A DNA stretch of 37,179 nucleotides from an uncultured Cytophagales bacterium (GTDB lineage: Bacteria; Bacteroidota; Bacteroidia; Cytophagales; UBA9547): NCBI GenBank assembly GCA_945957555.1, contig CAMFLX010000032.1, positions 1 to 37,179 of the forward strand, written 5' to 3'. The notes beneath the pieces are model-generated. The model saw nothing but the letters and a program-made list of their open reading frames with translations. It did no database searches and had not been told where the DNA came from. Below, in pieces: positions 849 through 32,812 of the stretch; position 1 is the first letter of the stretch, and each line of letters starts with the position of its first letter. The position numbers and the translations under genes were made by a program.

Positions 849-3800
849 TTATTCTTTAACGATTTTCAGACGTTGTGCTTTACCGTTTTGTTTAAACTCT
901 AAAATATAGACACCTTTTGCAAGCTGAGTACCAACGATTGACTCCTTCTTGGCCAAAACACTATGTGTTTCTACTACCGCACCCATAAGGTTTCTGATCA
1001 CGATACCTTCAATTTGGGTATCTGCACTAGGTGCTACGATATGGAAACCTGTACTTGATGGATTTGGATATACCAAGACCTCTTCAGTACCAGATACTTC
1101 TTCAATGTCAGAGAGTATGGGTTTCTTTATCAAAAGTAGCTGTGGCGCTTTGCCAGAGCTGTTCTCTTTGGAATGGAAAATAACCCTAGGGAACAAGTCC
1201 CTGGTATTGATCAACACAAAAGTAACCAAGGTCTGGTTGGCCGCTTGTGCCTGTTTGATGTATGAAGTCACATCAAAGAAATAGTCCTTGCCTGTAGTAC
1301 CGTTATTGGTAACAGAAAGCGTATCTAGGAAAGTAGCACTTGCTACAGGTCTGGTTTTCCAAGTCACGGTGTTTTCATTCCAAGTTGTATTTGTGGATGT
1401 ATACACTGCCACTTGAATCTTGCTACCAGTCGTAAACTCTGTAGGCTCTATGCCCCCAAAGAGCTTAAGTTTTGCAGAACTGATTTCAGAGGTATAACCA
1501 GAGATGTCGAATCGTACCAAAACTCTTCTGTTGGGTCCTAAATTGTAGATCTTTGAAACCAATTGTGTCGGATTCGTCGCACCAAAGGCAACGGTAGAAT
1601 CGGCAGCGGTAAGTTTGCCATCTTGCACGTAGGCATCAGCCACAGTGGTGAATAGGGAACTGTCTGGAGTAAACGGCACATATATGGCAGTATATGTAGT
1701 GTTGCTGGTAGGGGTAGAAATGATCTGGTCATCAGGACCGCCTTGTGACCAGCTATCAAACTTGTAGTTCACATTGTTGAGCATCTGAGGAGAAATTGGC
1801 TTCAGACGTCTTTGTAGATTTTGCACAGATAAAATGCTCCTTGGACCTGTATATATCTGATCATCCACACTGATCTTAAGACCTGTAGGTTGTGTCTGAA
1901 AAGTCAAAGTAGACTTTAGTGGACGCAACTCTATGGTAGCAGTATCTTTTAGCCCTTTGGAATCTGCAACAATAAGTTTCAACACATACCATACCGTATC
2001 GCTAGTTTCTCCAATGGTAGGAATGGTGATGGATCCTGAACTCTGACCTGTCAATATAGCTGGGCCATCGTGTGTATGGGTATTGTGGTGGAAATCCAAG
2101 TACCAAGTAAAGGTAGTTGCTGGCAAAGTACCATCTTCTGCATCTGTACCCGCACCTGAAAAGGTAAAAGTATCACCAGCTTTGTACAAGGTACCGTTGC
2201 TTGGCGAGGTGATGGACGCTACCGGCTGAGTGTTTTTGGGACCAATGGTGATCTTGGCAATATTACTCAATACAGAACCAGCCGCATTAGTTACAGAAAC
2301 AGTATAGCTTCCGGAATCGCTTTGCGTAGTGGCGCTAATTGTGAAACTTGCAGATGTTGCATTAGGAATATTAACCCCGCTTTTCTTCCATTGGTAAGTG
2401 AAGGGCTCAGACCCTGTAGCTACTACTGTTAAAGTAAGCGGCTGTGTTTCAAATACCGTTTGTGTCAAAGGCTGTGTTACGATTTCAGGCTCTGCGGTCC
2501 CAGAAAAAACAATTTTGTATATGGAGGAATTATCTCTGCTCAGGTAATACAAATTACCGTCGCTTGCCACGTCTACTACCACAGGAGAACCTGCTAGGCC
2601 TTTGTAAAATTTAGACATTTTGCCAGTGCTGGGATCTATATAGTTCATCCAGTTGCTACAATAATCCATGAAGAAATACTTGTTTTTATACTTGGATGGA
2701 TAATTGGTAGTGGTAGGTGCAAAAAAGCAACCTCCTGTAATGGCACAGCCTGTAGTATCCGTAGTGCTATGCACATAAGTATATAATGGGTTTGCAAAAG
2801 CCGTATTCGTAGACATACCTTCCGCAGTAGGCCAACCGTAGTTTTTACCACCTGCAGTTGCATCATCTATTTCTTCCCACATATCTTGCCCGACGTCATT
2901 GATCAAAAGCTGACCTGTGGTCGGGTGTACATCAAAGGTAAATGGGTTACGCACACCATATGCCCAAACCCTTTTTCTTTGCTCTGTAGCTGTTGGGCTG
3001 TAAAATGGATTATCAGTAGGTGCTGAACCATCAGGGTTTACTCTTAAGATTTTGCCATGGTAGGTATCAAGATTTTGGGCATTGGCCGAAGTGTGATTAT
3101 CACCCACGGCAATGTACAGTTTTCCATCCTTACCGAAATTCATGGCCCCCCCGTTATGGTTGATGGCCGAAGAAAGAGGATCAAGTTCTAAAATAATGGT
3201 TTCATCACCGCTCATGACCACATCGCCCATAAGCATAAACCTGCTCACTCTATTATGCTTACCACCTGAAGCGGTAGTGTAGTACAAGTAGACATAACCG
3301 TTGGTAGCGAAGTTCGGATCTAGTGTGATCCCCAACAAGCCTCTTTCTGTATAAGTACCATCGCTGGTCAAATCTACAGTGAGAGATACTGCAGCGGTGG
3401 GTAGTAAAGCACCGTTTTTAATCACTCTTAGTTTACCTGTTTGTTCGCAAACCAAAATTCTGCCATCGGGCACACATACCATTGCTGTAGGGTTGGTAAG
3501 TCCGTTAGCAACCAATACATTAGTAAATATATTATTTACCTGAGTGGTGGTATTTACCAATGTAAGCTTACCAAAGTATGAGGCATTCTTATAGGCTTGG
3601 TTTTTATCAGTGCCTGCGATCACTTCTGAACCGATGAAGCTTTCTCTGGAAGTACCTCCGTCATTATCACAATAGGCCATTGCAAAACCCATTACTTTAC
3701 CTTCAGCTAAAACAGCCTTAGGATTATTTGCTGCTCCGTATACAAATTTATCAGTATACACATCAAAAGCCGCTTCCCAAGTATATACATTGCCTACAGC

Positions 3801-4286
3801 TGTTCTCTTCACCGTAAGGTTCGAGTTTACCAATTTCGGATTACCATCTGTACCAATATCTACTGCATCATAAAACTTAGAGATATGGTAGGCAAAAGCA
3901 TTGTAATTGTTTTGATGATCGCCTCCTGATCTGTCTTCATCCAGAAAAATCTCCCAAGTATCGTCCTCCCAATAATTAGAGAGCGGATCGGCATAGTTGT
4001 CATTCAACACATCATCAGTGATTTCTCCTAACACATACAATTTGTTTGCATCCCAAGATATTTTGAATTTTCCAGAGAAGTCTGCAGCATTTGGTGCTGC
4101 ACCCAACCATAATTGATCCACGACATACCAGTTGGCACCAGTCCAACAGGCATCATTGCCTATCCCATCTATTGTGGGTGCGGTAGCTGCTTTGGGCGCT
4201 TGATAGTCGCCACTCTGTGCATAGCCCATAGACCATAGCAATGCGAACGCTAGCACCATGATTATACTCCTCATACCTCTAATCAT
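849..4286 (-). CDS. Secreted CBM9-like / PQQ glucose-sorbosone dehydrogenase-like protein with T9SS type A sorting domain
   Basis: 1145 residues. A signal peptide ends near GYA at residue 23. Residues 33-245 look like a CBM9-type sugar-binding domain (IDGIGNDACW opening). Residues 252-598 form a glucose/sorbosone dehydrogenase beta-propeller, with RGLLGITLDPNF, INHNGGAMNFGKDGKLY and VGQDMWEEID as family landmarks. An Ig-like domain (598-680), a PKD-like domain (682-785), a short repeat-like domain (790-880) and a DNRLRE-type domain (882-1057, opening DAYVQDGK) follow. Residues 1065-1145 are a T9SS type A domain starting VYPNPSS and ending with a basic, valine-containing strand (KIVKE). The protein should be exported by the Sec system and then by the T9SS to the cell surface or medium, and probably oxidises or binds a sugar derivative. 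PQQ use is a family expectation; no PQQ genes are seen here. The next gene upstream, in the same direction, is a GH74 xyloglucanase. Confidence 0.88.
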   Translation of the reverse strand: MIRGMRSIIMVLAFALLWSMGYAQSGDYQAPKAATAPTIDGIGNDACWTGANWYVVDQLWLGAAPNAADFSGKFKISWDANKLYVLGEITDDVLNDNYADPLSNYWEDDTWEIFLDEDRSGGDHQNNYNAFAYHISKFYDAVDIGTDGNPKLVNSNLTVKRTAVGNVYTWEAAFDVYTDKFVYGAANNPKAVLAEGKVMGFAMAYCDNDGGTSRESFIGSEVIAGTDKNQAYKNASYFGKLTLVNTTTQVNNIFTNVLVANGLTNPTAMVCVPDGRILVCEQTGKLRVIKNGALLPTAAVSLTVDLTSDGTYTERGLLGITLDPNFATNGYVYLYYTTASGGKHNRVSRFMLMGDVVMSGDETIILELDPLSSAINHNGGAMNFGKDGKLYIAVGDNHTSANAQNLDTYHGKILRVNPDGSAPTDNPFYSPTATEQRKRVWAYGVRNPFTFDVHPTTGQLLINDVGQDMWEEIDDATAGGKNYGWPTAEGMSTNTAFANPLYTYVHSTTDTTGCAITGGCFFAPTTTNYPSKYKNKYFFMDYCSNWMNYIDPSTGKMSKFYKGLAGSPVVVDVASDGNLYYLSRDNSSIYKIVFSGTAEPEIVTQPLTQTVFETQPLTLTVVATGSEPFTYQWKKSGVNIPNATSASFTISATTQSDSGSYTVSVTNAAGSVLSNIAKITIGPKNTQPVASITSPSNGTLYKAGDTFTFSGAGTDAEDGTLPATTFTWYLDFHHNTHTHDGPAILTGQSSGSITIPTIGETSDTVWYVLKLIVADSKGLKDTATIELRPLKSTLTFQTQPTGLKISVDDQIYTGPRSILSVQNLQRRLKPISPQMLNNVNYKFDSWSQGGPDDQIISTPTSNTTYTAIYVPFTPDSSLFTTVADAYVQDGKLTAADSTVAFGATNPTQLVSKIYNLGPNRRVLVRFDISGYTSEISSAKLKLFGGIEPTEFTTGSKIQVAVYTSTNTTWNENTVTWKTRPVASATFLDTLSVTNNGTTGKDYFFDVTSYIKQAQAANQTLVTFVLINTRDLFPRVIFHSKENSSGKAPQLLLIKKPILSDIEEVSGTEEVLVYPNPSSTGFHIVAPSADTQIEGIVIRNLMGAVVETHSVLAKKESIVGTQLAKGVYILEFKQNGKAQRLKIVKE

Positions 4287-4821: not shown

Positions 4822-7800
4822 CTAGTCTTTTGTAATTCTAAGCAACTTGCTGCCCCCAGCATGCGATATTTTCAACAGATAAATACCTTTAGGGAGCTCA
4901 GCGCCCAAGGTGGTCATGTCAGTGGCACTGCCATGATCCATGGCTACACCTATTGCATTGTAAAGAACATAGTTAAAACTACCCTTCAACTCTATTTTAG
5001 TAGTGTGGTCAAAAGGATTCGGATATATGGAAAGTTCGCTTCCCATCATTTGATCGTGAATGCCAGTGATCACACCTATGGTCATATTTGCTGTATCGCT
5101 ACAGTTACTTTGTGTGACGGCGATGGCCTTCAAGGTATAATCGCCTGCAGCTAGGTTACTTATGGTAGTAGTATATGGACTTGAATTGTCCTCAATGATC
5201 AGTTGATTGTTATTGTAGAACTGTACTTTGCTAATACCTGTACCCACCACGTTTGCAGTGAAGGTAACAGAGGCTGGACCCGAAAAGGAATTACTTGTAG
5301 GTGAGGTAATGGTCACCACTGGTACAGGACTTACAGTTACGGGAGTTACTGCTGAGGTAGCTTTACAAGTATTACTATTAGTCACCTCTACTGTAAAGCT
5401 ACCACTGCTCGTAGCGGTGTAGCTACTGCTGGTACCTACTTGAGTAGTACCGTTTTTCCAAATATAGGAACTGCCCGTACTGGCTGTAAGGACTACTCTG
5501 CCCCCATCGCAAAAGGTAGTCGCCCCAACTGCTGTAATGCTTGCTGTCGGCAGGGCATTTACAGTAACTGTAATCGCACTTGAAGTAGCAACCGCGTTGG
5601 CATTGTCGTAAGCTTTGGCGGTAATGGTATGTGCGCCCACCGAGGCATTAGTCCATGAGTAGGTATAGCTACTGGTAGTAATGGTCGTCAACAAAGTACT
5701 GCCATCGTAAAATTCTACTTTGGAAATACTGCCATCGCCGTCAGCAGCATTAGCTGTTAAGGTAATGGCAGTACCAGAACAAACACTAATGTTGTTACTT
5801 GGTGCGGTTATGCTTACAGTAGGTGATGCATTGGTACTTGTCTGTAAATCCCCAAGTACGATACCACGGCCAACGGAACTCATATACACACGACCATAAG
5901 TATTCATGTCTCCGATCACAAACTGGCCATTGCCAGGGCCACCATATTCATGGGCGTCATCATTGATTCTTGTCCAAGTAGCACCTTCATCGGTAGATCG
6001 GTGTATGCCTAGCACGCCGCCAACTGTTCCCCAGATGTAAATAGTATGATAACTGGCGCCTATGGCAGCCTTACCCAAACCGACCGCACTACAAGTAGTT
6101 ACGTTTGAAATTTTGGTAAATGAAGTTCCTGAGTTTGTAGAGCGCGTTAGTCCGCCGCTATATAATGCCACCCAGATGTGCCCTTCCTTACCTGGAACAG
6201 TTCTAATGTTCATAGAGCCCCCTGTACCAGGCGAACCAGCACTTGAGAAGTTTGCTCCAGCATCGGTACTCACCAGCATATTGCCTCCAGAACTATTGTA
6301 TGCATAGAATTTATTGGTGTTTACCATGTCTGCAACAGGCACTGCACCTGTTATGCTTAATCCATTTACCGTACTCCATGAGCCACCATTGTTGGTAGAT
6401 CTGTAGGTTGTTCCTGAGGCATCCGGACAGTGGAGTATCACCGTGCCATTGGCTGAAAGCGCAACCCTGCCTTTGGTGCCACTAATGGCAGATGTTTGGG
6501 TCCAGCTGGTTCCTTGATTGGTCGTGTAGTACATTTTCTCGCCAACCCGTACCAAGGTATTAGTGCTTAGCGCTGCGCAAGCTAGGCCAGTAGTCGTACC
6601 CATTCTTGGTGTATGTACTGGAGGAAACTGGGTGATGTCTGTATGTTTAAAACCATCGAAATCGCCAATGACCGAAACCAAAGGCCCTCCGGTAATACTT
6701 ACTATGTCCAAAGGAACTGATTCTTCTATGCCTTTTGCGTTGAATTTCCAAGTTGTCTTAGTAGCATCAACATCGCTACAAGAAAATATACCGTTTCCTG
6801 AGACCACCCAAGCTTCTTTGCTGTTAAATGGATTAAACTCAATACATCCTGCCCAGTGGATAGATTGTCCAGAGATCCAAGTACATCCATTGGGGTCCAA
6901 GGTAATAGAGTTACTACCTACCAAGTCTCTCCAAGAGCTTCCCCCATCGGTACTTAGGTAAAAGCGGTCTCCATATACTGTGGCGTTGCTGGCATCCTTG
7001 TACTGAGAGGAGTAAACATTTATAGAAGACGTAATGAGTCTCTTCGCGTTGTTAGGGTCCACACTGATACCACCAAAGCCAGTAGTAACACCAGATGGGG
7101 TAACATTCGTCCACGTTTTGTTAGCAATATTGTATTTCCAGAGTTGTCCAGTAGCCGGATTATAAGGGCCTTCTTTATCAGCATAAGCAATAAAGAGGTT
7201 TCCATCACTGGCAAGCGTAGCCCTTTGTGGCATATATGAAGTAGGAGCGTTAGAAACCGCAGTAAAAGTGCTTCCTCCGTCGCTACTCATGTAGAAATTG
7301 GTACCCGTTTGTGACACTCCAACAAATATCCTTTGGGTAGCGTTTCCAGTAGTGCCAGTCGTAGGGTCATAAAGCACAAAACTAATTCCATTGGCATTGG
7401 ATGTAGTAGTTACATTCAGTCCAGTTAGTCTAGACCAGCTTGCACCTGAGTTCGTACTTTTGAACAGACCATTAGCCCTAGTACCACAGAGTAGGATAGC
7501 GCCGTTATTAGGATCTACTACAAGTTTTTCCCCATTCTGACGGCCCATACCATTGCCATGTGCTTTGAATTGCGAACTCACATCTGTAAGTGCAAAAGTA
7601 TTGCCATAGTCGCTAGATCGTAAAATGGCAGTTTTTCCCCCATTAAAATAAGAAGTTCCTACCAACATATAGAACTTGCTCGGTGTTTGTGGGTCAATAG
7701 CTATGGATTCTACACCCAGATATCCCGTTTCATTTTCAGAAACCCAATCCGTTAAAGGAGTCCATGTACTGCTAGTAGCATTCCATCTGTATGCACCGCC

Positions 7801-7998
7801 CACATCTGTACGGCAATACATCAAGTTTTGCTCTTTTGTACTGGTTACTATCCCATCCACAAAACCTCCACCGCCAATGAGCACATTGCCCCACTTATAG
7901 GTCTGTGATTGAGCATAAAAAGTACTTAAGAATAATAATAGAATAGGAGAACTAAAGAGTATATTTTTGAAACGTAAGAAGTATATATTTGTCTGCAT
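4822..7998 (-). CDS. Secreted GH74 xyloglucanase with Ig-like domains and T9SS type A sorting domain
   Basis: 1058 residues. A signal peptide covers about residues 1-31. Residues 33-715 are a GH74 double seven-bladed propeller with many Asp-box turns (STDGGSSW, STNNGGSW, STDEGATW). Both family catalytic aspartates appear present: Asp65 in YCRTDVGGAYRW (base) and Asp446 in VIGDFDGF (acid). GH74 enzymes hydrolyse the beta-1,4-glucan backbone of xyloglucan, in endo or reducing-end mode; which mode applies here cannot be told without the exo-loop alignment. Three Ig-like domains follow (725-813, 817-890, 893-975). A T9SS type A domain opens at YPNPFDH (992) and ends with LLRITKD. The product should be cell-surface or released. 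It may work alongside the neighbouring sugar dehydrogenase-like protein on plant cell wall material. Confidence 0.92.
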   Translation of the reverse strand: MQTNIYFLRFKNILFSSPILLLFLSTFYAQSQTYKWGNVLIGGGGFVDGIVTSTKEQNLMYCRTDVGGAYRWNATSSTWTPLTDWVSENETGYLGVESIAIDPQTPSKFYMLVGTSYFNGGKTAILRSSDYGNTFALTDVSSQFKAHGNGMGRQNGEKLVVDPNNGAILLCGTRANGLFKSTNSGASWSRLTGLNVTTTSNANGISFVLYDPTTGTTGNATQRIFVGVSQTGTNFYMSSDGGSTFTAVSNAPTSYMPQRATLASDGNLFIAYADKEGPYNPATGQLWKYNIANKTWTNVTPSGVTTGFGGISVDPNNAKRLITSSINVYSSQYKDASNATVYGDRFYLSTDGGSSWRDLVGSNSITLDPNGCTWISGQSIHWAGCIEFNPFNSKEAWVVSGNGIFSCSDVDATKTTWKFNAKGIEESVPLDIVSITGGPLVSVIGDFDGFKHTDITQFPPVHTPRMGTTTGLACAALSTNTLVRVGEKMYYTTNQGTSWTQTSAISGTKGRVALSANGTVILHCPDASGTTYRSTNNGGSWSTVNGLSITGAVPVADMVNTNKFYAYNSSGGNMLVSTDAGANFSSAGSPGTGGSMNIRTVPGKEGHIWVALYSGGLTRSTNSGTSFTKISNVTTCSAVGLGKAAIGASYHTIYIWGTVGGVLGIHRSTDEGATWTRINDDAHEYGGPGNGQFVIGDMNTYGRVYMSSVGRGIVLGDLQTSTNASPTVSITAPSNNISVCSGTAITLTANAADGDGSISKVEFYDGSTLLTTITTSSYTYSWTNASVGAHTITAKAYDNANAVATSSAITVTVNALPTASITAVGATTFCDGGRVVLTASTGSSYIWKNGTTQVGTSSSYTATSSGSFTVEVTNSNTCKATSAVTPVTVSPVPVVTITSPTSNSFSGPASVTFTANVVGTGISKVQFYNNNQLIIEDNSSPYTTTISNLAAGDYTLKAIAVTQSNCSDTANMTIGVITGIHDQMMGSELSIYPNPFDHTTKIELKGSFNYVLYNAIGVAMDHGSATDMTTLGAELPKGIYLLKISHAGGSKLLRITKD

Positions 7999-8122: not shown

Positions 8123-9037
8123 TTATAAGTCAGTATAAAGTCCCTTTTTGAGTTTGAATAGATACTTCAGGCTGAGCTCAAAGGACTGAATATTAGTTCT
8201 TCGTTGGTTAATGAAAGGAAAATTGTAGTTGAATATTAATGCAAAATCACCCCACTTGAGCGGAATATTTTGAAAACCAGCCATTACAGAAAACTTCGTC
8301 GCAGTGGTAAGGTTGCCACCCATGAGCAGTTGCCCCCTATAAGACATGTATGCGCCTATATCTGTAGTATTGTAGGTATCTGTTCGTATGTTTTCTTGGC
8401 CATACAAGCTAGTACTCCATTGCTGATTCCAGATAAAGTGCTTTTGTATATATAGGTTGTAGAATCGCTTCCACCGAAAGGACAAATCTTTGGGTTGTAC
8501 CGTAGTATTAAAGGCTTGATTTACCGAGAATCCCAAAACGATGTATTCTGGTCTGTAAAAAACCAAACCAAAGTCTCCGTCTGGTGCCGACGCAAAACCT
8601 TGCGTGTTGCCACTGGTACCACTGTAGGTATAGCCTGCCAGACCTAGGTATGCCCCAGCACCTAGCCAATAGTTCTGGGTAACGCGTAAGTGCCAACCAT
8701 AACTTACATAAAACCTGTTTCTGGTAATATATTCACCTTCATCCTCACCACTAAACTTGAGCCCTAGATTATGCTTGGAGCCTGCGCTGTCTTTGGGACT
8801 TAGATTGAAATTGGCAAAGAATAGCTTGTTGTTGACCTTGTCAAATGCGCCTAAATATCTTTGGTAGTTCAATTGTACCTCTGTATGCCCATCTATATTA
8901 CTCATGGCTGGGTTATAGGTTCTGATCACATTGAAAACTTGACTTTGATGTGCTGGATACTGACTGTACTGGGCATAAATACTCGCATGGGTTGCGTATA
9001 AAACCCAGATCATGATATATGTCAGCAGTTCTTTCAA
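8123..9037 (-). CDS. PorP/SprF-family type IX secretion membrane protein
   Basis: 304 residues. The mature protein begins YSQYPAHQSQVFNVIRTYNPAMSN, the family's usual opening (a few residues after the signal peptide, then NPA), and the rest is amphipathic beta-strand sequence ending in a YLFKL strand, as in an outer-membrane barrel. The TTG start at 9037 is preferred over ATG at 9013 because it supplies the lysine needed for a credible signal peptide (MKELLTYIMIWVLYATHASIYAQ); the shorter form would lack a charged n-region. In Flavobacterium, SprF is needed for export of SprB, a type B cargo; PorP homologues accompany PorK/L/M/N. The gene is divergent from an ECF sigma operon that encodes two proteins with type B-like C-termini, so it may be their outer-membrane partner. 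Confidence 0.85.
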   Translation of the reverse strand: MKELLTYIMIWVLYATHASIYAQYSQYPAHQSQVFNVIRTYNPAMSNIDGHTEVQLNYQRYLGAFDKVNNKLFFANFNLSPKDSAGSKHNLGLKFSGEDEGEYITRNRFYVSYGWHLRVTQNYWLGAGAYLGLAGYTYSGTSGNTQGFASAPDGDFGLVFYRPEYIVLGFSVNQAFNTTVQPKDLSFRWKRFYNLYIQKHFIWNQQWSTSLYGQENIRTDTYNTTDIGAYMSYRGQLLMGGNLTTATKFSVMAGFQNIPLKWGDFALIFNYNFPFINQRRTNIQSFELSLKYLFKLKKGLYTDL

Positions 9038-9142
9038 TTTAATCTATTCCTAACACAACATTACACAAAAAAAACTTTTAATATATAAATTTTATACATT
9101 TAATGTAACTTAAGCGCCCAAACGTTGTATTGACAATAAATA

Positions 9143-9718
9143 ATGAGTATTAGCGATTCCGAAATAATAACAGCTATAAGGGAAGGGCGGGATCAAATGG
9201 TCGTAAAGTCCATTTATGACAACGTGTTGCCCAATGTTAAGAGATTTATAGTTGCTAATGCTGGTAATAATGAAGATGCTCTAGATATTTTCCATGATGC
9301 AATGTTGGTCTTTTTCAAGTTGGTCATGGCGGGAAAATACGATGCCGACAAATACAAGGTTTATGGATTTGTATACACCATTTGTAGGAACTTGTGGATC
9401 AACCAAGCAAAAAAAAAGACTCATTTTGCAAAATGGTCGGAGTTTTCTGAAAAAGAAGAGTTTGATGAGACTGTACTAGAGCAGTTGATCTCTAAGGAAA
9501 AGCTCACATTGGTGAAGAAGTTGCTGAGTGATTTAGGTGACAAATGTGTGGAGGTGCTTACGCTCTTCATGTATAATGAACTCTCGTATCGAGAGATTGC
9601 CGTGAAAATGGGTTTCGAAAGCGAAAGTGCAGCAAAAGTAAAAGCACACAGATGCAGAAAAGCCCTTACAGAAAAGATAAAGACCGATAGATATATATTT
9701 GAACAACTACGAAATTGA
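9143..9718 (+). CDS. ECF-type RNA polymerase sigma factor
   Basis: 191 residues. Region 2 spans about 20-95, with DALDIFHDAMLVFFK and the GFVYTICRNLWINQAKK core-binding/-10 recognition segment. Region 4 spans about 128-185, with the helix-turn-helix ELSYREIAVKMGFES followed by AKVKAHRCRKAL. No region 1 or 3 is present, so it is a group 4 factor. It redirects RNA polymerase to a small regulon; ECF factors often activate their own operon. Its stop codon overlaps the TTG start of the next gene (ATTGA at 9714-9718), which indicates translational coupling with the putative anti-sigma factor. Confidence 0.92.
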   Translation: MSISDSEIITAIREGRDQMVVKSIYDNVLPNVKRFIVANAGNNEDALDIFHDAMLVFFKLVMAGKYDADKYKVYGFVYTICRNLWINQAKKKTHFAKWSEFSEKEEFDETVLEQLISKEKLTLVKKLLSDLGDKCVEVLTLFMYNELSYREIAVKMGFESESAAKVKAHRCRKALTEKIKTDRYIFEQLRN

Positions 9719-10824
9719 AAGACGAACAAGAATTATATGATTTTATAGACGATTACCTGAAAGGTGATCCTCAGGCCGATCTTCCTAAAGTAGAAGATAT
9801 GGACTTGGGGGAATTATCTCAAGAAATCGCTTACCAAAAGGTTCTTAAAGATGCCGTAGTACTCAATAGGCTATCGCAACTGAGTGAAACCATACACAAA
9901 GTGGACCAACAGGCTCAATTCAAAAAGAAGGTTGTGAAATATACCGTACTTGTGGCCTTGCTTGCTGCACTGGTCTCTACAGGAATTTTCTTCTACTCTA
10001 AAGAGAAATCAAACCATACCAAGACGACACTCACAACAAGTTCTGAAATTATAGTGGATTCCCCTTCGAAAACAGTCTTAGAGATATCATCAGATGTAAA
10101 ACCCACCCAAACGGTTGTTACGAATACTATGAAAGAACCTCAAGGGGTACCAGCAATGGCAGATAAGCCTAGTGAGTCACAGGAAAAGCCAGTAGCAGCC
10201 CATCCTGAGCAAGAAACAGCAAAGCACAGTTTGCTAACAAGTCCTGACCCAAATCCTGAAAGAGTGCCGATTCCTGAAAAAACGGTAACTCATAGTCTGG
10301 TTGATTGCAAACAAGTAAAGATTAAGGCCAATTATACTTTTGAAAACCCTTGTGTTGGGCAAAATAACGGTCAAATCACGATAGAAGAGATTTCTGGAGG
10401 AACCAAACCATACACTTTTTCTATAGACAATGCCAAAGGTTTTGCCACCGATTCGGAATTCAAAGATTTAAACAGTGGCCACTACAAAATCTTGATAAAA
10501 GATGCACATGATTGTATTTCTGATGTGATTGCGAATGTATCACTTACAGAGACTACTTGTGACGCAAAAGACGCCCAAAGTCATGTGTTCAATCCTTCAA
10601 GAGAATCATGGGAAATCCCAAATCAAAAAGAACATGCAGGCACAGTGGAGATCTACAACAATAGGGGGATTTTGGTTTATAGAGCAAATTTTAACAAATT
10701 TGAAACCTTGAACTGGAATGGCACAAGCCCTCAAGGCGAGCAGATCAGCCCTGGCGTATATATTTATAGAATTCAGTATGAAAATTCAACAAGTGAAAAA
10801 GGCTCTGTAAGCGTGGTGTATTGA
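9715..10824 (+). CDS. Putative membrane anti-sigma factor with SprB-like and T9SS type B-like C-terminal domains
   Basis: 369 residues. The start is TTG, overlapping the sigma stop; no ATG lies nearby. Residues 1-74 are acidic, helical and probably cytoplasmic (EQELYDFIDDYLKGD), the usual place of a sigma-binding domain, with no zinc-binding HxxxCxxC. Residues 76-94 form a single membrane helix. A Pro/Ser/Thr/Glu-rich linker (97-195) could cross the periplasm. Residues 198-282 resemble an SprB repeat (NPCVGQNNGQITIEEISGGTKPYTFSID). Residues 288-369 match the gliding-associated/T9SS type B C-terminal pattern: VEIYNNRGILVYRAN, then LNWNGTSPQGEQISPGVYIYRI and a final strand. I infer an anti-sigma role from position and topology. 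The combination of an inner-membrane anchor and a T9SS address domain is odd. The adjacent LRR gene overlaps its stop. Confidence 0.72.
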   Translation: MKDEQELYDFIDDYLKGDPQADLPKVEDMDLGELSQEIAYQKVLKDAVVLNRLSQLSETIHKVDQQAQFKKKVVKYTVLVALLAALVSTGIFFYSKEKSNHTKTTLTTSSEIIVDSPSKTVLEISSDVKPTQTVVTNTMKEPQGVPAMADKPSESQEKPVAAHPEQETAKHSLLTSPDPNPERVPIPEKTVTHSLVDCKQVKIKANYTFENPCVGQNNGQITIEEISGGTKPYTFSIDNAKGFATDSEFKDLNSGHYKILIKDAHDCISDVIANVSLTETTCDAKDAQSHVFNPSRESWEIPNQKEHAGTVEIYNNRGILVYRANFNKFETLNWNGTSPQGEQISPGVYIYRIQYENSTSEKGSVSVVY

Positions 10825-12701
10825 TGAATAAGTTTCTTTTCATAGCGCTACATACATGGTTGGTGTGCCAAAGTCTGGCTCAAGTCACTGATGTGCCAGA
10901 TAGTAACTTTAGGAACTATCTGAAGATCATAGTTCCGTCTTATTTTACGCCAGAAGGCAAGCTCATTGATACCATGGCGGTGAAATATGTAGGTGCTTTC
11001 AATTGCTCCAAATTCAATATAAGTTCTTTAAGTGGTATAGAGAAATTTAAAAACTTAAAGTACCTTCAGTGTACAGACAACAACATTGTCGATTTATCTG
11101 GGATCGAAAATTTGAGTGCTTTAGAAGAGTTACATTGTCACAATAATGCCCTTGTATCCTTACCTTCATTTGACAAACTCGTAAATCTTGTGTATTTCCG
11201 TTGCTCCTACAATCAGCTCAAAACATTGCCAGATTTTAGCAACAATACGAAACTTAAGACTCTACAGTGCGATTTCAATCAAGTTACGGAGATTAAAGGT
11301 TTAGATAAACTTGTCAATCTTGAAAATTTAATTATCTACTGTAATAAAATTGCACATTTGCCAGATTTATCTTCCTTACAAAATCTTCAGCTTTTAGAAT
11401 GCCATAGTAACAAATTGGACACCTTAACTGGACTTAACAATCTTAATAATCTAAAAACCATTGTTGCAGGTGATAATCTCTTTAAAAACCCTGGGGAGCT
11501 CAACGGTTTAAAGAGTCTTGAGTCGCTTGGTTTTTGGGTAAACCAGATTAATCACTTACCCGACATGTCTCTCATGACGAATCTCAAAGAGCTTGATTTT
11601 AATAATAATAAAATCAAGTCAATACCAGATTTTAGTCGGTTGCTCTTGCTTAAAACCATTAAGTGCCAAGACAACTTATTAGACTCTTTGAGCAATTTGA
11701 GTACCTTATCTGCCTTGGAGTTAGTACATGCTAAGAATAATAAGATATCCATATTCCCTAAGCTTACAGGTTCACAATCAACACTACAAGAATTACTCCT
11801 TGATACCAATGAATTGGCCACGCTACCAGACCTTTCTATGTTCACAAATCTCAAAAAGCTACAGCTACAAGGGAATAGACTCACCTTTGAGGATATTTTG
11901 CCGCTCACAAGTCTTAGTTATGCAAATGCTATAGTATATACTCCTCAAAAGGATGTATTGGCACCAAGTTTTAAGTCTTTAAAAGAAGGAGAGCTTTTTC
12001 AATGGCAAGTAGGTATAGATAAAAGTGTAAGCAACAATGTCTATGAATGGTATAAGGATGGTATACTTATTTCTCAAACCACCTCAGACCTATTTGAGAT
12101 CACTCAAATGAAAGCAAGCAATGCTGGGCTATATACATGTGTCATCAAAAACAGCGGATTGCCAAGTCTTGTTCTTAAAACGACCCCTATGCAAGTAGAG
12201 GTAGTTTCATGCATTGATTTAAGAGCGTTAAAGTACACCACTACAGAAATTGCCTGTGGTAAAGCAGGGAGCCTTACCATCGATCCTCAGAGTATCAGCA
12301 GTGACGATAGAAACTTTAGTTATGCACTTAAAGTTTCTCAGACAGGAGCTATCGTATCAGGAACCGGCAATATGGGTTTTGAAAATCTAATCAATACCGA
12401 ATATGTATTCTCTATCAGTAACGGAGCGGGTTGCTCAAACAATATAAATTTGACTGTACCTAAGAATACCACGGGTTGTGATCGGGCTATTATTCTGGCC
12501 ACTGGTGAAGACCCTAACAAGGCCAGCTTTTTTATAGAAGGAACTGGCGATGTAAAGATCTACGACAAATCTGGTCTTATTGTAAGACGTTTGACTGCAC
12601 CCACCTATTGGGATGGTCGCTTAGATGGTGGGGAGATAAAGCCTGGGCTATATGTAATAGACATCAACTCCAAATACCAAGAAGTTACCGTCATCAAATA
12701 A
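10824..12701 (+). CDS. Secreted leucine-rich-repeat protein with Ig-like, SprB-like and T9SS-type C-terminal domains
   Basis: 625 residues from ATG at 10824, which overlaps the previous stop (TGATG). The preceding TTG at 10821 adds only one residue and is less likely. A signal peptide ends near CQSLAQ. About residues 55-385 are leucine-rich repeats of 20-23 residues with an LxxLxCxxNxLxxLPDLS pattern. Residues 390-465 are Ig-like (YEWYKDGILIS, AGLYTCVI). Residues 468-555 resemble an SprB-type repeat with paired cysteines. The last 70 residues (GDVKIYDKSGLIVRRLTA, YWDGRLDGGEIKPGLYVIDI) follow the same type B-like pattern as the end of the neighbouring putative anti-sigma factor. It is probably a surface-exposed binding protein; its ligand is unknown. 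Shared end modules and overlapping genes suggest that the two proteins act in one pathway. Confidence 0.82.
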   Translation: MNKFLFIALHTWLVCQSLAQVTDVPDSNFRNYLKIIVPSYFTPEGKLIDTMAVKYVGAFNCSKFNISSLSGIEKFKNLKYLQCTDNNIVDLSGIENLSALEELHCHNNALVSLPSFDKLVNLVYFRCSYNQLKTLPDFSNNTKLKTLQCDFNQVTEIKGLDKLVNLENLIIYCNKIAHLPDLSSLQNLQLLECHSNKLDTLTGLNNLNNLKTIVAGDNLFKNPGELNGLKSLESLGFWVNQINHLPDMSLMTNLKELDFNNNKIKSIPDFSRLLLLKTIKCQDNLLDSLSNLSTLSALELVHAKNNKISIFPKLTGSQSTLQELLLDTNELATLPDLSMFTNLKKLQLQGNRLTFEDILPLTSLSYANAIVYTPQKDVLAPSFKSLKEGELFQWQVGIDKSVSNNVYEWYKDGILISQTTSDLFEITQMKASNAGLYTCVIKNSGLPSLVLKTTPMQVEVVSCIDLRALKYTTTEIACGKAGSLTIDPQSISSDDRNFSYALKVSQTGAIVSGTGNMGFENLINTEYVFSISNGAGCSNNINLTVPKNTTGCDRAIILATGEDPNKASFFIEGTGDVKIYDKSGLIVRRLTAPTYWDGRLDGGEIKPGLYVIDINSKYQEVTVIK

Positions 12702-23086: not shown

Positions 23087-26000
23087 ATGGTTTTTGTGAG
23101 GAAACACATATTCATGTTCTTAGGCATCTTGTTTGGATGCGCTGCCTTTATCACCTATTGGGCTAAACAAACCAGTACCTTAAATAACGACCAAGAAATC
23201 CATCAAGAGATCAGCCATAATTTAAAGTTTGAGATCAGCTCTTGCGAAAGGGAACTCAATAAGCTCTCGAATTTCATAGAAAACGAGAAGCAGGTATTTT
23301 TTACAACTGTCGGCACCAACTATAAGCATCCCATCCTCATCTATAAGGGATCAAAATTGGTGGTATGGACTACCAATAAAATCCCGATAGAAACGGAAAA
23401 AATAGCTAAAAGCCTAAAGTATAGCTTTTACAATGAGCGTGAGGAAAAGTACGTATCAGTCGCCATCCAGAAAAAAATAGGCCGTGATATCTATTACATA
23501 GTTGGGCTACTGCCCATAGTTAAGAAATACTCCATTCAAAACGACTTTCTACAGACAGAATATAACCAAAACGTATTTTCATTTAAAAACTTCTCTGGTA
23601 TCTTTTTTGAATACAAATCAGAGCCTGAGTATTCTAATTACTATGCAAAAGACGGTACCTTTCTCTTTAGCTTAAACCTTCCCAATCAAATCGCCAACGA
23701 CCAAGAAGCCTTCGACTGGTTCATTTTGTCATTTCTTACACTCTGCATCAGCTTCTTTGTACTGGAGCTCTCACTATTTATCAACAGATGGACTAGAGAA
23801 CAAAACCCCTATAAGAGTATCTCAATTTGGATACTTTTCGTGGTAGGTATTAGAGCTTTTTTGATGCTCATTGACTACCCTTATGGCATCAAAAACTTAA
23901 AGATCTTTCAAACTAAATACTTCATCCACAACTACCTCTGCCCCTCTCTTGGCGATTTTTTTCTACACTTGGTAGCACTTGCGATCATTATCATTATTTT
24001 ATTTTTTAAACACAGGGAAAAAAGAGAGCACGAGTTTTTCAAAAAACTGAATCCTCGCACCAAATTACTCTTGGCAGTTGGTATAGTTTTCTTTATTCAC
24101 TTAATCTATAGGGGGGTATTTGAAGCCATCTGTTTGGTCAATTCAAATTATGAATATGGTATAGACATCACCAAAAACATAGACATTAACTCGTTCAAAA
24201 TCATCTCTTGGGCCATATATATCATTTTGGCATTTTCCTTCTTGGGCGTATACCAGATTTCTATTCGGTTATTTGACAGAATGAGCTTAACTACCCAAAA
24301 AAGTAGACATATTATTCTGTTTTGTGCAGGGACATTGGCGTATGCTGGCATTACTTTGATCTTAAACAGCCTCAACTGGCCTCTATTAGCAGTAGGTATT
24401 ATTCATTTTGTAATCATTATTAGGTTCAAACTTCTCAATATCATCAATAGATTTGATTATACCATTTATATCTATCTACTAGTCAATGCTACAGTATGCG
24501 CCACAGCTGGAAGTTTGGCTATATTCACTACTGAAAACAACAAAAACCTGCAAAACAAAAACTTATTCAGTACCACAATAATGACGGAAAACGATCTTTA
24601 TGGAGAATTTCTACTTAAAGAAGCTAGTGACAAAATCAAAAGCGATCCTTTGATCGTGAATCGCCTGAGCTCGGGACCGCTTACCTCGGTGGATCTCATA
24701 GAGCAGAAGATCTTAAAAATACATTTGAATAAATATTTCAACAAGTTTGACATCAAGGTAAAAGTCTTCACACTATCTGGTGAAGAATATTTCAACAGTA
24801 TGTCTGAAAACTATTTCTCGATGAGAAGCAGGTACTACAAACAAAACTTCAAAACTGAGTACCCTGACATATTTTTCATTAATACGGCTGGGGCTGATAA
24901 AAAATATCTCAATTTCATTGAAATCAAAGATTCTGATGAGCCCGTGGGTTATATCATACTTGAGTTTACCTTCAAAAAATATGTACCCAACAGTATCTAT
25001 CCAACGCTACTGATCGACAAGCGATTCAACAGAAGTAGCTATTTCCCTGATTATAGTTATGCCATGTACAACAATGATACCCTGAACAGCAGTTCTGGGA
25101 CATATATATATAGCAAACTATTCTTTGAGAAAGTCCAAGAAGCAAAGTACACCAACGTAAATCACTTTTTATACAATGGCTATCTGCATCACCTTACTTT
25201 CCTTAAGCACAAAACGATCATCGTTTCCTCTCCTGATCATAGATTTGAAGAGTTAGCCTCTAACTTTTCTTTTCTATTCATTATACAACTTGTGGCTATT
25301 TTAGCCATCGTTGGCTATTACTTTGCCTATCTCAACTATTCTAAACAAAACATCAACTACTCTACCAAGATACAGATTTACCTCAACATCGCCTTTATTC
25401 TACCCTTGATCGTGGTGACATTTGTGTTCATGCTCATTACCATCAAAAACTATAATGACGACCTTAAAACGAATTTCAACAACATAGCCCTTAAAGTTTC
25501 TGACAGGCTTACCGATTTTACTGAAGAGTATAGGACGGGCCGGATAGACTATCAACGCTTTGGTAACAACTTTGCGGAACTGGCCCAAAACTTCGAAACA
25601 GATATTAACCTATACGACAAACGAGGAAAAATCCTTAACACTTCACAGCCTTTGATTTACGAGAAAAAACTACTTTCTGAATACATAAACCCACTGGCCT
25701 ATTCAGAAATCATAGAGAAAAAGAAAAAATCAATCATCGTAAACGAGCGAATCGGCGAGCTCAACTACTACGATGTATACACCAGTTTGAAATCTCAAAA
25801 AAGTGGACAGATCCAAGGGATTGTAAGTATTCCCTTCTATGAGACCAAAGCCGAAATCCAGAAAAAACTTATTACCGTGATCGTAACCATCTTCAACATT
25901 TTCGTGATTGTATTTATTCTCTTTGTTGTAGTCACCTACTATGCAACCAAGACATTAACCTTCCCTATCGAACAACTGAAACTGAGCATGCAAAGTGTTT

Positions 26001-26800
26001 CGCTCCAGAAAGAAAACGAAGCGATTCATTGGAACTCTAAAGACGAGATCGGTCAGCTTATCAGCGAATACAATAAAATGATCTTGAAACTACAAGAGAG
26101 TAAGGAACAGCTCACCAAAACGGAAAAGGAAACGGCATGGCGCGAAATGGCCAAACAGGTAGCACATGAGATCAAAAATCCGCTTACGCCTATGAAGCTC
26201 AACCTCCAATACTTGGACATGATGATCAAAAACAATGACGATCCTGAGAAAATAGAGTTGGCTACCAATAAAACCATCAAAGTGATGTTGGAACAGATCA
26301 ATACACTGAGTGAGATAGCTACCTCTTTCTCTAACTTCGCTAAAATGCCACTACCTAAGCTTGAGGCTTATAACCTATACGCCGTCACGCAATCTATATA
26401 CGACCTGTACAAAAGTAACAAAGACATCTCGGTCCTCTTTATTGGCAAACCCAACAAAATAAATACCATTGGCGATAAGGAGCTCATGGGCAGGATCATT
26501 AATAACCTTATTATTAATGGTATTCAGTCGGTTAACACCTCTAAAAAGCCTAATATTACCATTACTCTAGAAACAACACAGACCAAAATCATCGTCAAGA
26601 TCAAGGACAATGGCGAGGGAATACCAGAGGAAATCAAAGACAAAGTATTTTTACCAAATTTTAGTACCAAATACACCGGCTCTGGCCTAGGTCTTGCAAT
26701 GGCCAAACAAGGGATAGAGTTTTTTGGAGGAAGAATCTACTTTATTTCGCAAGAAGGGCAAGGAACTGAATTTTTCATTGAATTACCCATAAAACATTAA
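23087..26800 (+). CDS. Large multi-pass NtrY-like sensor histidine kinase
   Basis: 1237 residues. One membrane helix (about 8-25) precedes an extracytoplasmic domain (30-205), then about eight helices (208-475), a second extracytoplasmic domain (480-720), two helices (725-785), a third outer domain (790-925) and a helix (928-948). HAMP follows (950-1000). His1027 in QVAHEIKNPLTPMKLNLQYL is the phosphorylated H box of the NtrY type. The ATPase domain has NNLIINGIQSV (N box), DNGEGIPEE and GSGLGLAMAKQG. No response regulator gene is adjacent. The ATG at 23087 is kept because it supplies Arg/Lys before the first helix; ATG 23114 is an alternative. Its input signal is unknown. Confidence 0.9.
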   Translation: MVFVRKHIFMFLGILFGCAAFITYWAKQTSTLNNDQEIHQEISHNLKFEISSCERELNKLSNFIENEKQVFFTTVGTNYKHPILIYKGSKLVVWTTNKIPIETEKIAKSLKYSFYNEREEKYVSVAIQKKIGRDIYYIVGLLPIVKKYSIQNDFLQTEYNQNVFSFKNFSGIFFEYKSEPEYSNYYAKDGTFLFSLNLPNQIANDQEAFDWFILSFLTLCISFFVLELSLFINRWTREQNPYKSISIWILFVVGIRAFLMLIDYPYGIKNLKIFQTKYFIHNYLCPSLGDFFLHLVALAIIIIILFFKHREKREHEFFKKLNPRTKLLLAVGIVFFIHLIYRGVFEAICLVNSNYEYGIDITKNIDINSFKIISWAIYIILAFSFLGVYQISIRLFDRMSLTTQKSRHIILFCAGTLAYAGITLILNSLNWPLLAVGIIHFVIIIRFKLLNIINRFDYTIYIYLLVNATVCATAGSLAIFTTENNKNLQNKNLFSTTIMTENDLYGEFLLKEASDKIKSDPLIVNRLSSGPLTSVDLIEQKILKIHLNKYFNKFDIKVKVFTLSGEEYFNSMSENYFSMRSRYYKQNFKTEYPDIFFINTAGADKKYLNFIEIKDSDEPVGYIILEFTFKKYVPNSIYPTLLIDKRFNRSSYFPDYSYAMYNNDTLNSSSGTYIYSKLFFEKVQEAKYTNVNHFLYNGYLHHLTFLKHKTIIVSSPDHRFEELASNFSFLFIIQLVAILAIVGYYFAYLNYSKQNINYSTKIQIYLNIAFILPLIVVTFVFMLITIKNYNDDLKTNFNNIALKVSDRLTDFTEEYRTGRIDYQRFGNNFAELAQNFETDINLYDKRGKILNTSQPLIYEKKLLSEYINPLAYSEIIEKKKKSIIVNERIGELNYYDVYTSLKSQKSGQIQGIVSIPFYETKAEIQKKLITVIVTIFNIFVIVFILFVVVTYYATKTLTFPIEQLKLSMQSVSLQKENEAIHWNSKDEIGQLISEYNKMILKLQESKEQLTKTEKETAWREMAKQVAHEIKNPLTPMKLNLQYLDMMIKNNDDPEKIELATNKTIKVMLEQINTLSEIATSFSNFAKMPLPKLEAYNLYAVTQSIYDLYKSNKDISVLFIGKPNKINTIGDKELMGRIINNLIINGIQSVNTSKKPNITITLETTQTKIIVKIKDNGEGIPEEIKDKVFLPNFSTKYTGSGLGLAMAKQGIEFFGGRIYFISQEGQGTEFFIELPIKH

Positions 26801-28215: not shown

Positions 28216-31200
28216 TTAGTTTTTTACAAAAATCTGTGTAGCTATGCTCCCACCTTTTTTCATAATTTTCACAAGATAGATACCTGCACTAAAATCTTTC
28301 CCTAATGTTAAAACACTTTGAGTATTGTGGTTTTCTAAATTATAAACTACCGAACCTTGTTGGTTATAAACTACTACCTCCACAGTCTCTTCATGTACAG
28401 AACCACTGAATTCTAGTACCGTTTCTCCAGCAGAGGGATTAGGATACAAACTAAAATAAGTATCCAATGAAGTCAAATTAGCTGGTGTCATAACATCAGA
28501 CTTACGTACGAGTTGTTGATAGCCAGAACAAGATGTGAGCGAAACAATATATACAGCGCCGGCATCATAACCATCAGCTGCTTGCACTGGCACTGATGAA
28601 TTCCAGCCATCATCGTCTCTTGGCGCACTTACAGCCAGCTCTAGGTTCCCATCATTATTCAAGTCGCCCAAGGCTCCCATTGATTGTGCGAAGAAATCAT
28701 ATTCTATATTGATTTCTCCGTTAAATGGTGCATCTGTACTCTTAATGAGCTTGCTACATTTTACTGTTCCATCGCTTTTGAGATAAACAATCCAAAATCC
28801 ACCCATTGCCAAACTACCTGTTTTTATATAGGGGCTTCCTACTGCTATATCATTTACACCATCACAATCCAAATCCCCTAATTTTTCCAACGAACGGCCG
28901 AATCCTGTATCTGATGGCCCCACAAAACCACCTATACCGTTAGCAAAACGCTGATAATTTCTCACAGTACCGTTACTATTCATAAACAAAATGTATACTG
29001 CACCATCAGTAGCGTCTGCACTATAAATATCACCAACAGCAATCTCTCCATTACCATCCCCGTCCAAATCACCAATACCTTCAGAGAATGCCCCCCAAAT
29101 ATTCGAATAATTAGGCAACAAGCCTTGCATACCACCGCTTCTATCAGACACCTCTTGTACCTGCTTTATGGTGCCATCGGTATTCAAAAATATTACATAG
29201 AACCTTGGCGGAGTATTGCCGCTTGGCACTGCCAAACTCGCAACCATATCCGTAACGCCGTCATGATCCAAATCGCCAATATTGGTCATGGATATTCCAA
29301 ACTGCTCGTTACTAGCAGCAGGCAGAGTAGATGTAAGACCTGGGTGAGTAGTCCTGTTATGTTTCTTGTAGGTTTTAACGGTACCATCAGAGTTCAAGAA
29401 TAAAATCCAAAAAGCCCCGTTAAACAAGCCCGCATCACTATCCAAAGGTGCCCCAACAGCGATATCTGTATTGCCATCACCATCAAGATCACCCAACGAT
29501 GCCACCGATTGACCAAACATAGAACCATACTGTGCACTCAGACCTGTGTATGGAAGACCTCCAAAACCAGGACGAATAATGGTTCTGGATTTAACCGTAC
29601 CATTAGCATTCATGAAAATCACAAATAATTCTTCAGAATAACTTGCAGCTGTAGACATATTAAAAGGTGTGGTGCTCACCATATCTTCCACTCCATCCCT
29701 ATCTAAGTCTCCAATGCCAGTGAGCCCGGTACCAAAGTTCCCATAACCGGTAATTGGGCCTGCAAACCCACCCTGAGTGGCTGAGATCTTAGTAGTTGAT
29801 AGTAGATTACCAGATGTTACACTGCAGCATACTTGTGCGGGTGCCATATTAACAGTAGCAGTTACAGGCATACTTGTACAGGCCCCAAGTAGTGAGCTAC
29901 CTTTAACAGTGTAAGTTATTGCAGCAGTCGGGGAAGCGATCACGGCAGCGCCAGTGGTTGTATTTAAACCTGTGGCTGGTGACCATGTAAAATTAGGCGC
30001 CCCTGTTGCCGTTAGCGTCACTGATGACCCAGGACAAATTGTTGATGTTGACGGAGTCACCGTGATCACTGGTATGGTTTCAACTGTTACTGTAACATTT
30101 GCAGTTCTGGAACAAGTGCCTACTTTATTGGTCACTGTATAGGTAGTAGTCACACTTGGGTTAGCTACTACAGTAGCACCTGTTGTAGTATTTAAACCCG
30201 AAGCCGGTGACCAAGTATATGAAGCGCCTCCTGATGCTGTTAAAACAATCGAATTACCCTTACAAATCACAGGATTCGCAGGACTTATTGATATTGCTGG
30301 GTTCGGTTTCACATTAACAGTGACTGTTTTACTAGCAGAACATCCTGTTGCGAAACTTCCCTTAACCGAATAAGTTGTAGTTACCGAAGGACTAGCTACC
30401 ACAGTAGCACCTGTAGTGGTATTAAGTCCAGTGGCTGGTGACCATAAATAGCTTGTGGCTCCAGATGCTGTGAGGCTCACAGAACTTCCATTACAAATGG
30501 TGGCATTGGGCGGTGTCACATTAACTGCAGGATTGGGATTTACAGTAATTGGCACCAAAACAACTCTTGAACAAGTACCAACCTTATTAGTAACAGTATA
30601 TGTAGTGCTTACTGCAGGTTTTGCGGTAACTACAGCTCCTGTGGTAGTATTGAGACCTGTAGCAGGAGACCATGTGTAACTAGACCCTCCTGCAGCGGTA
30701 AGGACCACTGAAGAACCTACACAAATACTAGCCGATGGTGGAGTAACAGAAATCACTGGATTAGGCAAAACAGTGACGGTTACGGTTTTTGTCGCTGTAC
30801 AAGCACCAATTGCTCCTGTAACCGTATATGTGGTATTCACCGAAGGCTTTGCAATCACTGATGCACCAGTGGTTGTATTTAAACCAGTAGCAGGGGACCA
30901 AGTATAGGTAGTAGCCCCGTAGGCCGTGAGAGTCGTGGAGTTCCCATTACATATCGTTGCCACACTAGGATTCACAGTCACTGTTGGTTTTACATTGTCT
31001 ACCTTTACAGTAACAGTAGTATTATTTACACAGCCAGCAATACTAGTTCCTGTAACCGTATAAGTAGTAGTTACGACTGGGCTAGCTATAACATTTGCAC
31101 CAGTGGCAGTATTGAGGCCTGTGGCAGGAGACCAAACATAAGTATTGGCTCCTGAAGCAGTAAGTGCCACGGATGAACCTTGACAAATTACTGGTGTCAG

Positions 31201-32688: not shown

Positions 32689-32812
32689 GATTTTAAATTG
32701 TTTTAGTTTTAAATAAAAATTGAATAAACACATAAAAAAATTTTGATTTTAGAAATAGAGTCCGCCAAATGATGTATAGTGTTTAGAGTTTTTTAACCTA
32801 ATATTAACTGTA

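Follow-up and report, generated by a model that had tools for sequence, protein, structure and literature searches.

The window, by which we mean the whole stretch of DNA analysed here (37,179 nucleotides), is one whole contig (C32) of a draft genome of 6.25 Mb in 413 contigs from an uncultured Cytophagales bacterium. Positions 8123-12701 hold a minus-strand porP gene and, 105 bases away, a divergent three-gene operon encoding an ECF sigma factor, a one-helix anti-sigma-like protein and a secreted LRR protein. An initial annotation had proposed this layout of a PorP/SprF gene facing an operon of overlapping genes; all four genes were recovered at their positions, and the overlaps that join the sigma, anti-sigma-like and LRR genes to one another, through TTGA and TGATG, are real. 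The features are as follows.

8123..9037, minus strand: PorP/SprF-type outer-membrane carrier, 304 aa, with a short C-tail and no twin cysteine (PF11751, AF2 model)
9105..9129, plus strand: putative ECF promoter of the sigma operon, GTAACTT-N14-TGTA (the sole intergenic match in the window)
9143..9718, plus strand: ECF sigma factor, 191 aa (TIGR02937, 63.5 bits; in a clade with the 12 genome copies)
9715..10824, plus strand: anti-sigma-like gene (one TM helix, SprB repeat, CHU_C), with the five parts below
9715..9942, plus strand: N-terminal domain, residues 1-76, predicted cytoplasmic (its profile matches proteins encoded beside sigma factors in other Bacteroidota)
9937..10008, plus strand: single TM helix, residues ~75-98 (hydrophobicity; AF2 helix 31-94)
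10009..10302, plus strand: predicted disordered periplasmic tether, residues ~99-196 (pLDDT <50 over most of 92-194)
10303..10560, plus strand: SprB repeat module, residues ~197-282 (PF13573, 31.9 bits; pLDDT ~90)
10573..10821, plus strand: CHU_C / type B-like C-terminal domain, residues 287-369 (PF13585, 36.8 bits; fold; GhpA profile match)
10821..12701, plus strand, ATG at 10824: secreted LRR and Ig protein with a SprB-like module and a type B-like CTD (LRR_4, 94.7 bits)

The locus is flanked in the window by further large genes. A 1058-aa BNR-repeat protein resembling F510_1955 glycosyl hydrolases and ending in a type A T9SS tail is encoded at 4822-7998 (minus strand), its start lying about 120 bases from the porP stop, and another minus-strand gene (849-4286) encodes a 1145-aa protein with glucose/sorbosone dehydrogenase, CBM9, CBM96 and Ig domains and again a type A T9SS tail. 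On the other side lie a plus-strand gene for a 1237-aa histidine kinase whose long N-terminal part is without Pfam match at E 0.001 (23087-26800) and a minus-strand gene (28216-32733) for a 1505-aa protein with FG-GAP and Ig_7 domains and, once more, a type A T9SS tail.

Carrier, anti-sigma-like protein and LRR protein

The window's porP product scored 65.1 bits against PF11751 (cut-off 22.3) and 57.4 against TIGR03519, below the stricter cut-off of that model (90.55), and by sequence it is a member of a divergent subgroup of PorP/SprF. Its AF2 model has 14 strands (pLDDT 78) and was matched by Foldseek to FadL and to the PorV chain of 8gl6, a T9SS complex; in searches by sequence, neither this barrel nor the N-terminal domain of the anti-sigma-like protein gave a credible match to a solved structure. 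The source genome contains 33 PorP_SprF matches, among which a low-scoring group adjoins ECF sigma genes. The group's carriers are short, with a median of 295 aa where the classical carriers of the genome have 348 aa, and they form their own tree branch (support 0.79), inside which three sequences labelled "classical" are members of the set counted twice. The CxC twin cysteine of the C-tail was found in none of 55 carriers of the group. As SprF depends on this motif for binding to the gliding track by way of GldK (PMC12635249), the group probably does not ride on the track.

The sigma factor was recognized by Pfam (Sigma70_r2), and its gene is directly followed by that of a one-helix protein whose N-terminal domain is conserved, the arrangement by which the two were taken, from sequence, as a sigma/anti-sigma pair. 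In the AF2 model of the anti-sigma-like protein (hereafter anti-sigma), a helical N-terminus runs into the membrane helix (31-94) and the C-terminus consists of two small, well-predicted beta domains of about 85 aa each (204-277 and 288-367). The last of these carries the CHU_C match (residues 297-365, 36.8 bits, cut-off 27); it scored 18 against the narrower type B model TIGR04131, below its cut-off of 35, and 25.8 against the type A model TIGR04183, above its cut-off of 23, and "CHU_C-type, B-like" is therefore the safe wording. The initial annotation had called this a type B/CHU_C domain; the CHU_C assignment stands by Pfam, together with a less specific T9SS-type fold, and the narrower type B label does not pass its own model. 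The fold matches T9SS CTDs, namely those of PorZ (Z 8.9 over 78 residues), RemA (Z 7.3) and RemZ (Z 7.0), but unrelated Ig-like domains also reach such Z values, so that the assignment is carried by the sequence match. The anti-sigma also gave a profile match at the C-terminal end of GhpA, a giant surface protein (E = 6e-16 for the anti-sigma taken whole). As had been proposed, the end modules of the anti-sigma and the LRR protein are related, their tails aligning over 164 columns with 24% identity (E = 4e-9).

The anti-sigma has no signal peptide (a helix lies at residues 75-98 instead) and lacks the full set of type B motifs. The type B loop [ST]PNxDGxxD was found in none of 66 anti-sigma CTDs, versus 34 of 51 cargo CTDs. 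Since most cargo keeps the loop and no anti-sigma tail does, the tail looks like a cargo domain whose export signal has been damaged or altered. Across relatives the tether has a median length of 104 aa, rising to about 125-138 aa in most copies without the SprB module (of the nine listed as such, two with tethers of at least 180 aa are probably misclassified and one has 101 aa); sequence comparison thus pictures a tether that is longer where the module is missing, as if reach were conserved.

The window's LRR protein, a putative cognate cargo or adhesin, has LRR repeats and an Ig-like domain by Pfam, a degenerate type B loop and no Pfam CTD match. Among the proteins encoded at this position across copies of the set, LRR_4 was found in 40 of 45 and CHU_C in 30 of 45, and a crude signal peptide in 53 of 54; most copies appear to bear a full type B signal and are predicted to be secreted. 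SprA is encoded in the source genome.

Copies, synteny and covariation of the gene set

Twelve paralogous sigma loci of the source genome were read locus by locus. A divergent porP lies 50-264 bases from the sigma gene in all twelve, although one is split into two frames and another is truncated where its contig ends. Every locus also encodes an anti-sigma-like protein of like build, always with the CTD, and in 11 a further gene lies close downstream. The split porP (L037:1170-2044, contig C104) comprises frames of 122 and 167 aa next to intact sigma, anti-sigma and LRR genes, and reflects either gene decay or an error in sequencing. The twelve anti-sigmas all begin with a helical N-terminal part, followed by one helix and a low-complexity stretch in which K, S, T, E, N and P abound; then come a SprB module (11/12) and a CTD with the pattern FNPxxGExWEIP...WxGxSxxG...GxYxFxIxYxDG...KGxVTI; at the Pfam level CHU_C and SprB were each reached by eight of them.

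A search of 291 genomes from the order with a profile of the 12 sigmas found the clade in 28, of which four have the tail-less form only, and related Cytophagales carry 1-11 copies per genome compared with 12 in the source. Synteny was parsed by script in 17 genomes bearing the tailed form, and four loci missed by the script were added by hand. By script, porP adjoined 63 of the 66 loci whose anti-sigma carries the CHU_C tail (head-to-head in 58) and none of the 15 where a related sigma is paired with an anti-sigma without a tail (Fisher p = 1e-13); with the hand-read loci, making 85 sigma loci, the counts are 66/69 with the tail versus 0/16 without it. The genome collections partly overlap, as with Sporocytophaga BIN9 and G488, both of which have a contig of 685,739 bases, and include close species, which inflates the counts, so these p-values for co-occurrence are indicative. 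The conserved order for which the initial annotation had suggested a search is thus present, in 12 paralogues and in the 17 genomes inspected, and the four genes are shown by sequence comparison to be one conserved multicopy set. A chance neighbourhood was rejected on the strength of the 12 paralogues and of the two-by-two test of tail and porP. Three tailed anti-sigmas, at L098 (G027), L100 (G025) and L169 (G453), had no adjacent porP, and their carriers may be encoded elsewhere in the genome.

Named genomes, searched with a profile of four close sigmas, gave the full set in 12 of 13 clade loci (L195-L207), the remaining locus being at a contig end, and neither a tailed anti-sigma nor a porP in 67 more distant sigma loci (L208-L274). 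The anti-sigma N-terminal domain was nevertheless found by profile search just downstream of the sigma gene in 62 of these 67 distant Bacteroidota loci, which by sequence makes it part of a wide family of sigma/anti-sigma pairs. Tail and porP thus appear to have been acquired jointly, mainly in Cytophagales, as they co-occur in the clade while distant sigma loci have the N-terminal domain without either. Where named, nearly all relatives carrying the system are Cytophagales; at E <= 1e-44, with eight candidates scored per genome, the sigma clade was not seen in 395 sampled genomes of the phylum except the source genome itself. In loci L101-L110 and L208-L274 the N-terminal domain is common and the periplasmic parts are of other kinds, for the most part unassigned, some followed by a three-helix membrane protein, and these loci look like a widespread Bacteroidota anti-sigma family with swappable sensors.

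Single loci vary this arrangement. One genome (G465) has five loci of the clade on one contig. At L159 and L186 classical type B cargo and porP genes stand in line behind sigma and anti-sigma, which ties the four-gene set to known type B operons. Three loci (C149, L160 and L168) keep porP and the tailed anti-sigma with no LRR gene found at the next position. On contig C56 (L044:2938-5640) a porP of the same group faces a gene for a secreted protein with a type B-like tail, with no sigma or anti-sigma nearby, and from its gene content this is a cargo/carrier pair without the regulatory half.

The motif TTAC[TC]-N15-[TC]GT[AC] occurs upstream of 23 of 66 clade sigmas, versus 0.27 expected, with a sharp optimum at a spacer of 15, and the window's GTAACTT-N14-TGTA is a variant of it. 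ECF sigma factors usually autoregulate, and the shared putative promoter fits autoregulation of the sigma operon. On the porP side an ECF motif was found in one of 58 cases, so PorP need not belong to the sigma regulon.

Distances between PorP proteins and between anti-sigma CTDs were weakly correlated once sigma was removed (r = 0.18, p = 0.02) and also with both sigma and cargo CTD removed (r = 0.22, p = 0.002); given sigma and the anti-sigma N-domain, the correlation was not significant (r = 0.12, p = 0.09). These values suggest a weak covariation between PorP and the anti-sigma tail. No covariation was seen between the SprB module and PorP. Cargo CTD and anti-sigma CTD were strongly correlated given sigma (r = 0.59). 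Matching of anti-sigma and LRR tails locus by locus was also considered and set aside, cognate tails being only slightly more alike than non-cognate ones and, within the source genome, not significantly so (p = 0.11).

Proposed signalling unit and competing explanations

We propose, with a probability of about 0.5, that at this locus an ECF sigma/anti-sigma pair serves cell-surface signalling, with a dedicated T9SS type B carrier as its partner in the outer membrane, and that the unit probably informs the cell what its surface adhesins are doing. The N-terminal domain of the anti-sigma would hold the sigma factor at the inner membrane, and the tether of about 100 residues would give the cargo-like CTD enough reach to dock on its cognate PorP in the outer membrane. 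The T9SS would export the LRR adhesin, and the same PorP would hold it. When PorP is loaded, a ligand binds or the LRR protein is pulled, the docking of the anti-sigma would change and free the sigma factor, which would transcribe its own operon and other targets. We infer the contacts among anti-sigma, PorP and LRR protein, as well as the face of PorP that is used, the direction of the switch and the signal. Docking of the anti-sigma tail on PorP had been put forward in the initial annotation, and this putative contact gains support from the co-occurrence of tail and porP (66/69 versus 0/16) and from the weak PorP/tail covariation. That annotation had not noticed the missing type B loop of the anti-sigma tail, the multiple copies or the ECF promoter common to the operons. 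The tail could dock from the periplasmic face, unexported, or could first pass out through SprA and dock on the outer face; given the loss of the type B loop, we slightly favour a tail that is not exported.

The outer-face alternative can be taken further, to an anti-sigma threaded through both membranes, its N-terminus cytoplasmic, its tail exported by the T9SS translocon and held by PorP next to the LRR adhesin on the cell surface; one polypeptide would then relay the signal from there to RNA polymerase. We regard this as unlikely, although if true it would be categorically new. The tail is homologous to surface cargo domains, the tether would be long enough if nearly extended, and PorP/SprF picks up type B CTDs once they have been exported (PMC12618676). 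The conservation of PorP leans the same way: of its 30 most conserved positions, 17 map in the model to the predicted outer half or outer loops, seven to the inner half and none to inner turns, a bias to the outer face that is suggestive but not significant (overall p = 0.11). Against threading stands the loop that no anti-sigma CTD has and most cargo CTDs keep, for secretion of SprB needed all five conserved motifs of its CTD (PMC12618676), provided that the loop is one of those tested motifs, which is an assumption.

A different role for the same parts is a sensor of secretion status, answering to no outside ligand, in which empty and loaded PorP would differ in their binding of the tail and the sigma factor would tune LRR synthesis to the supply of carrier. 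The cargo gene does lie within the sigma operon in most loci, and type B carriers are apparently used stoichiometrically and are limiting (PMC12618676); but a divergent LRR head kept in 40 of 45 proteins and 12 copies in one genome favour diverse ligands over housekeeping feedback, and we consider this version rather doubtful. More improbable still is that porP serves the LRR cargo only and that the CHU_C tail of the anti-sigma, a captured domain with another periplasmic role, never meets PorP. A porP beside type B cargo is to be expected anyway, since porP normally adjoins such genes (PMC12618676), and the paralogous porP/cargo pair without a sigma on contig C56 speaks for this explanation. 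Against it stand the co-occurrence of anti-sigma tail and porP, which extends to the three loci where no LRR gene was found next to them, and the residual PorP/tail covariation.

Comparison with known systems

In FecIRA surface signalling an ECF sigma factor works with a one-helix anti-sigma and an outer-membrane receptor. The proposed signalling unit likewise has, in adjacent genes, a sigma factor and a one-helix regulator whose periplasmic end is expected at an outer-membrane barrel, but the partner here is a FadL-type PorP instead of a TonB-dependent receptor with an N-terminal signalling domain, LRR surface cargo is added as a fourth part, and no FecR domain was matched by Pfam among the 12 paralogues.

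PorP/SprF proteins are specific carriers of type B CTDs (PMC9143113, PMC12618676). With SprB-SprF and other type B pairs (PMC9143113, PMC12618676, PMC12635249) the locus shares a cognate carrier gene and a CHU_C-tailed secreted protein. It differs by a second CHU_C tail, on an inner-membrane anti-sigma, and by carriers that are short, are without the CxC of SprF and give no sign of gliding-track attachment. In PorA-PorXY-SigP of Porphyromonas gingivalis, too, a surface CTD protein influences an ECF sigma factor, although through a two-component system with no CTD-bearing anti-sigma, and direct contact between PorA and PorY was not detected (PMC7712824). The published literature searched, open papers with few subscription ones among them, contained no description of anti-sigma factors linked to PorP/SprF.

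If true, the proposed signalling unit would be a direct physical link between gene regulation and type IX secretion, one of the main ways of surface display in Bacteroidota. It would then become open to experiment how cells sense the objects that their adhesins touch, or whether the adhesins are in place. It would also give a role to the divergent porP genes found away from classical cargo, and in gliding Cytophagales up to a dozen parallel units in one genome, every one with a separate LRR head, would amount to a large unrecognised sensory repertoire.

Another close likeness is to the Dma anti-sigmas (PMC13088901), for which an ECF21 sigma is characteristic, known from Bacteroidota only, as is the system described here, and built in the same way from an N-terminal sigma-binding domain, one helix, a long disordered tether and a C-terminus directed to the outer membrane (here by prediction). 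In Dma the C-terminal barrel is part of the same polypeptide (PMC13088901), whereas at this locus the C-terminus is T9SS cargo-like and the barrel is encoded by a separate gene, so that by analogy the locus looks like a split Dma.
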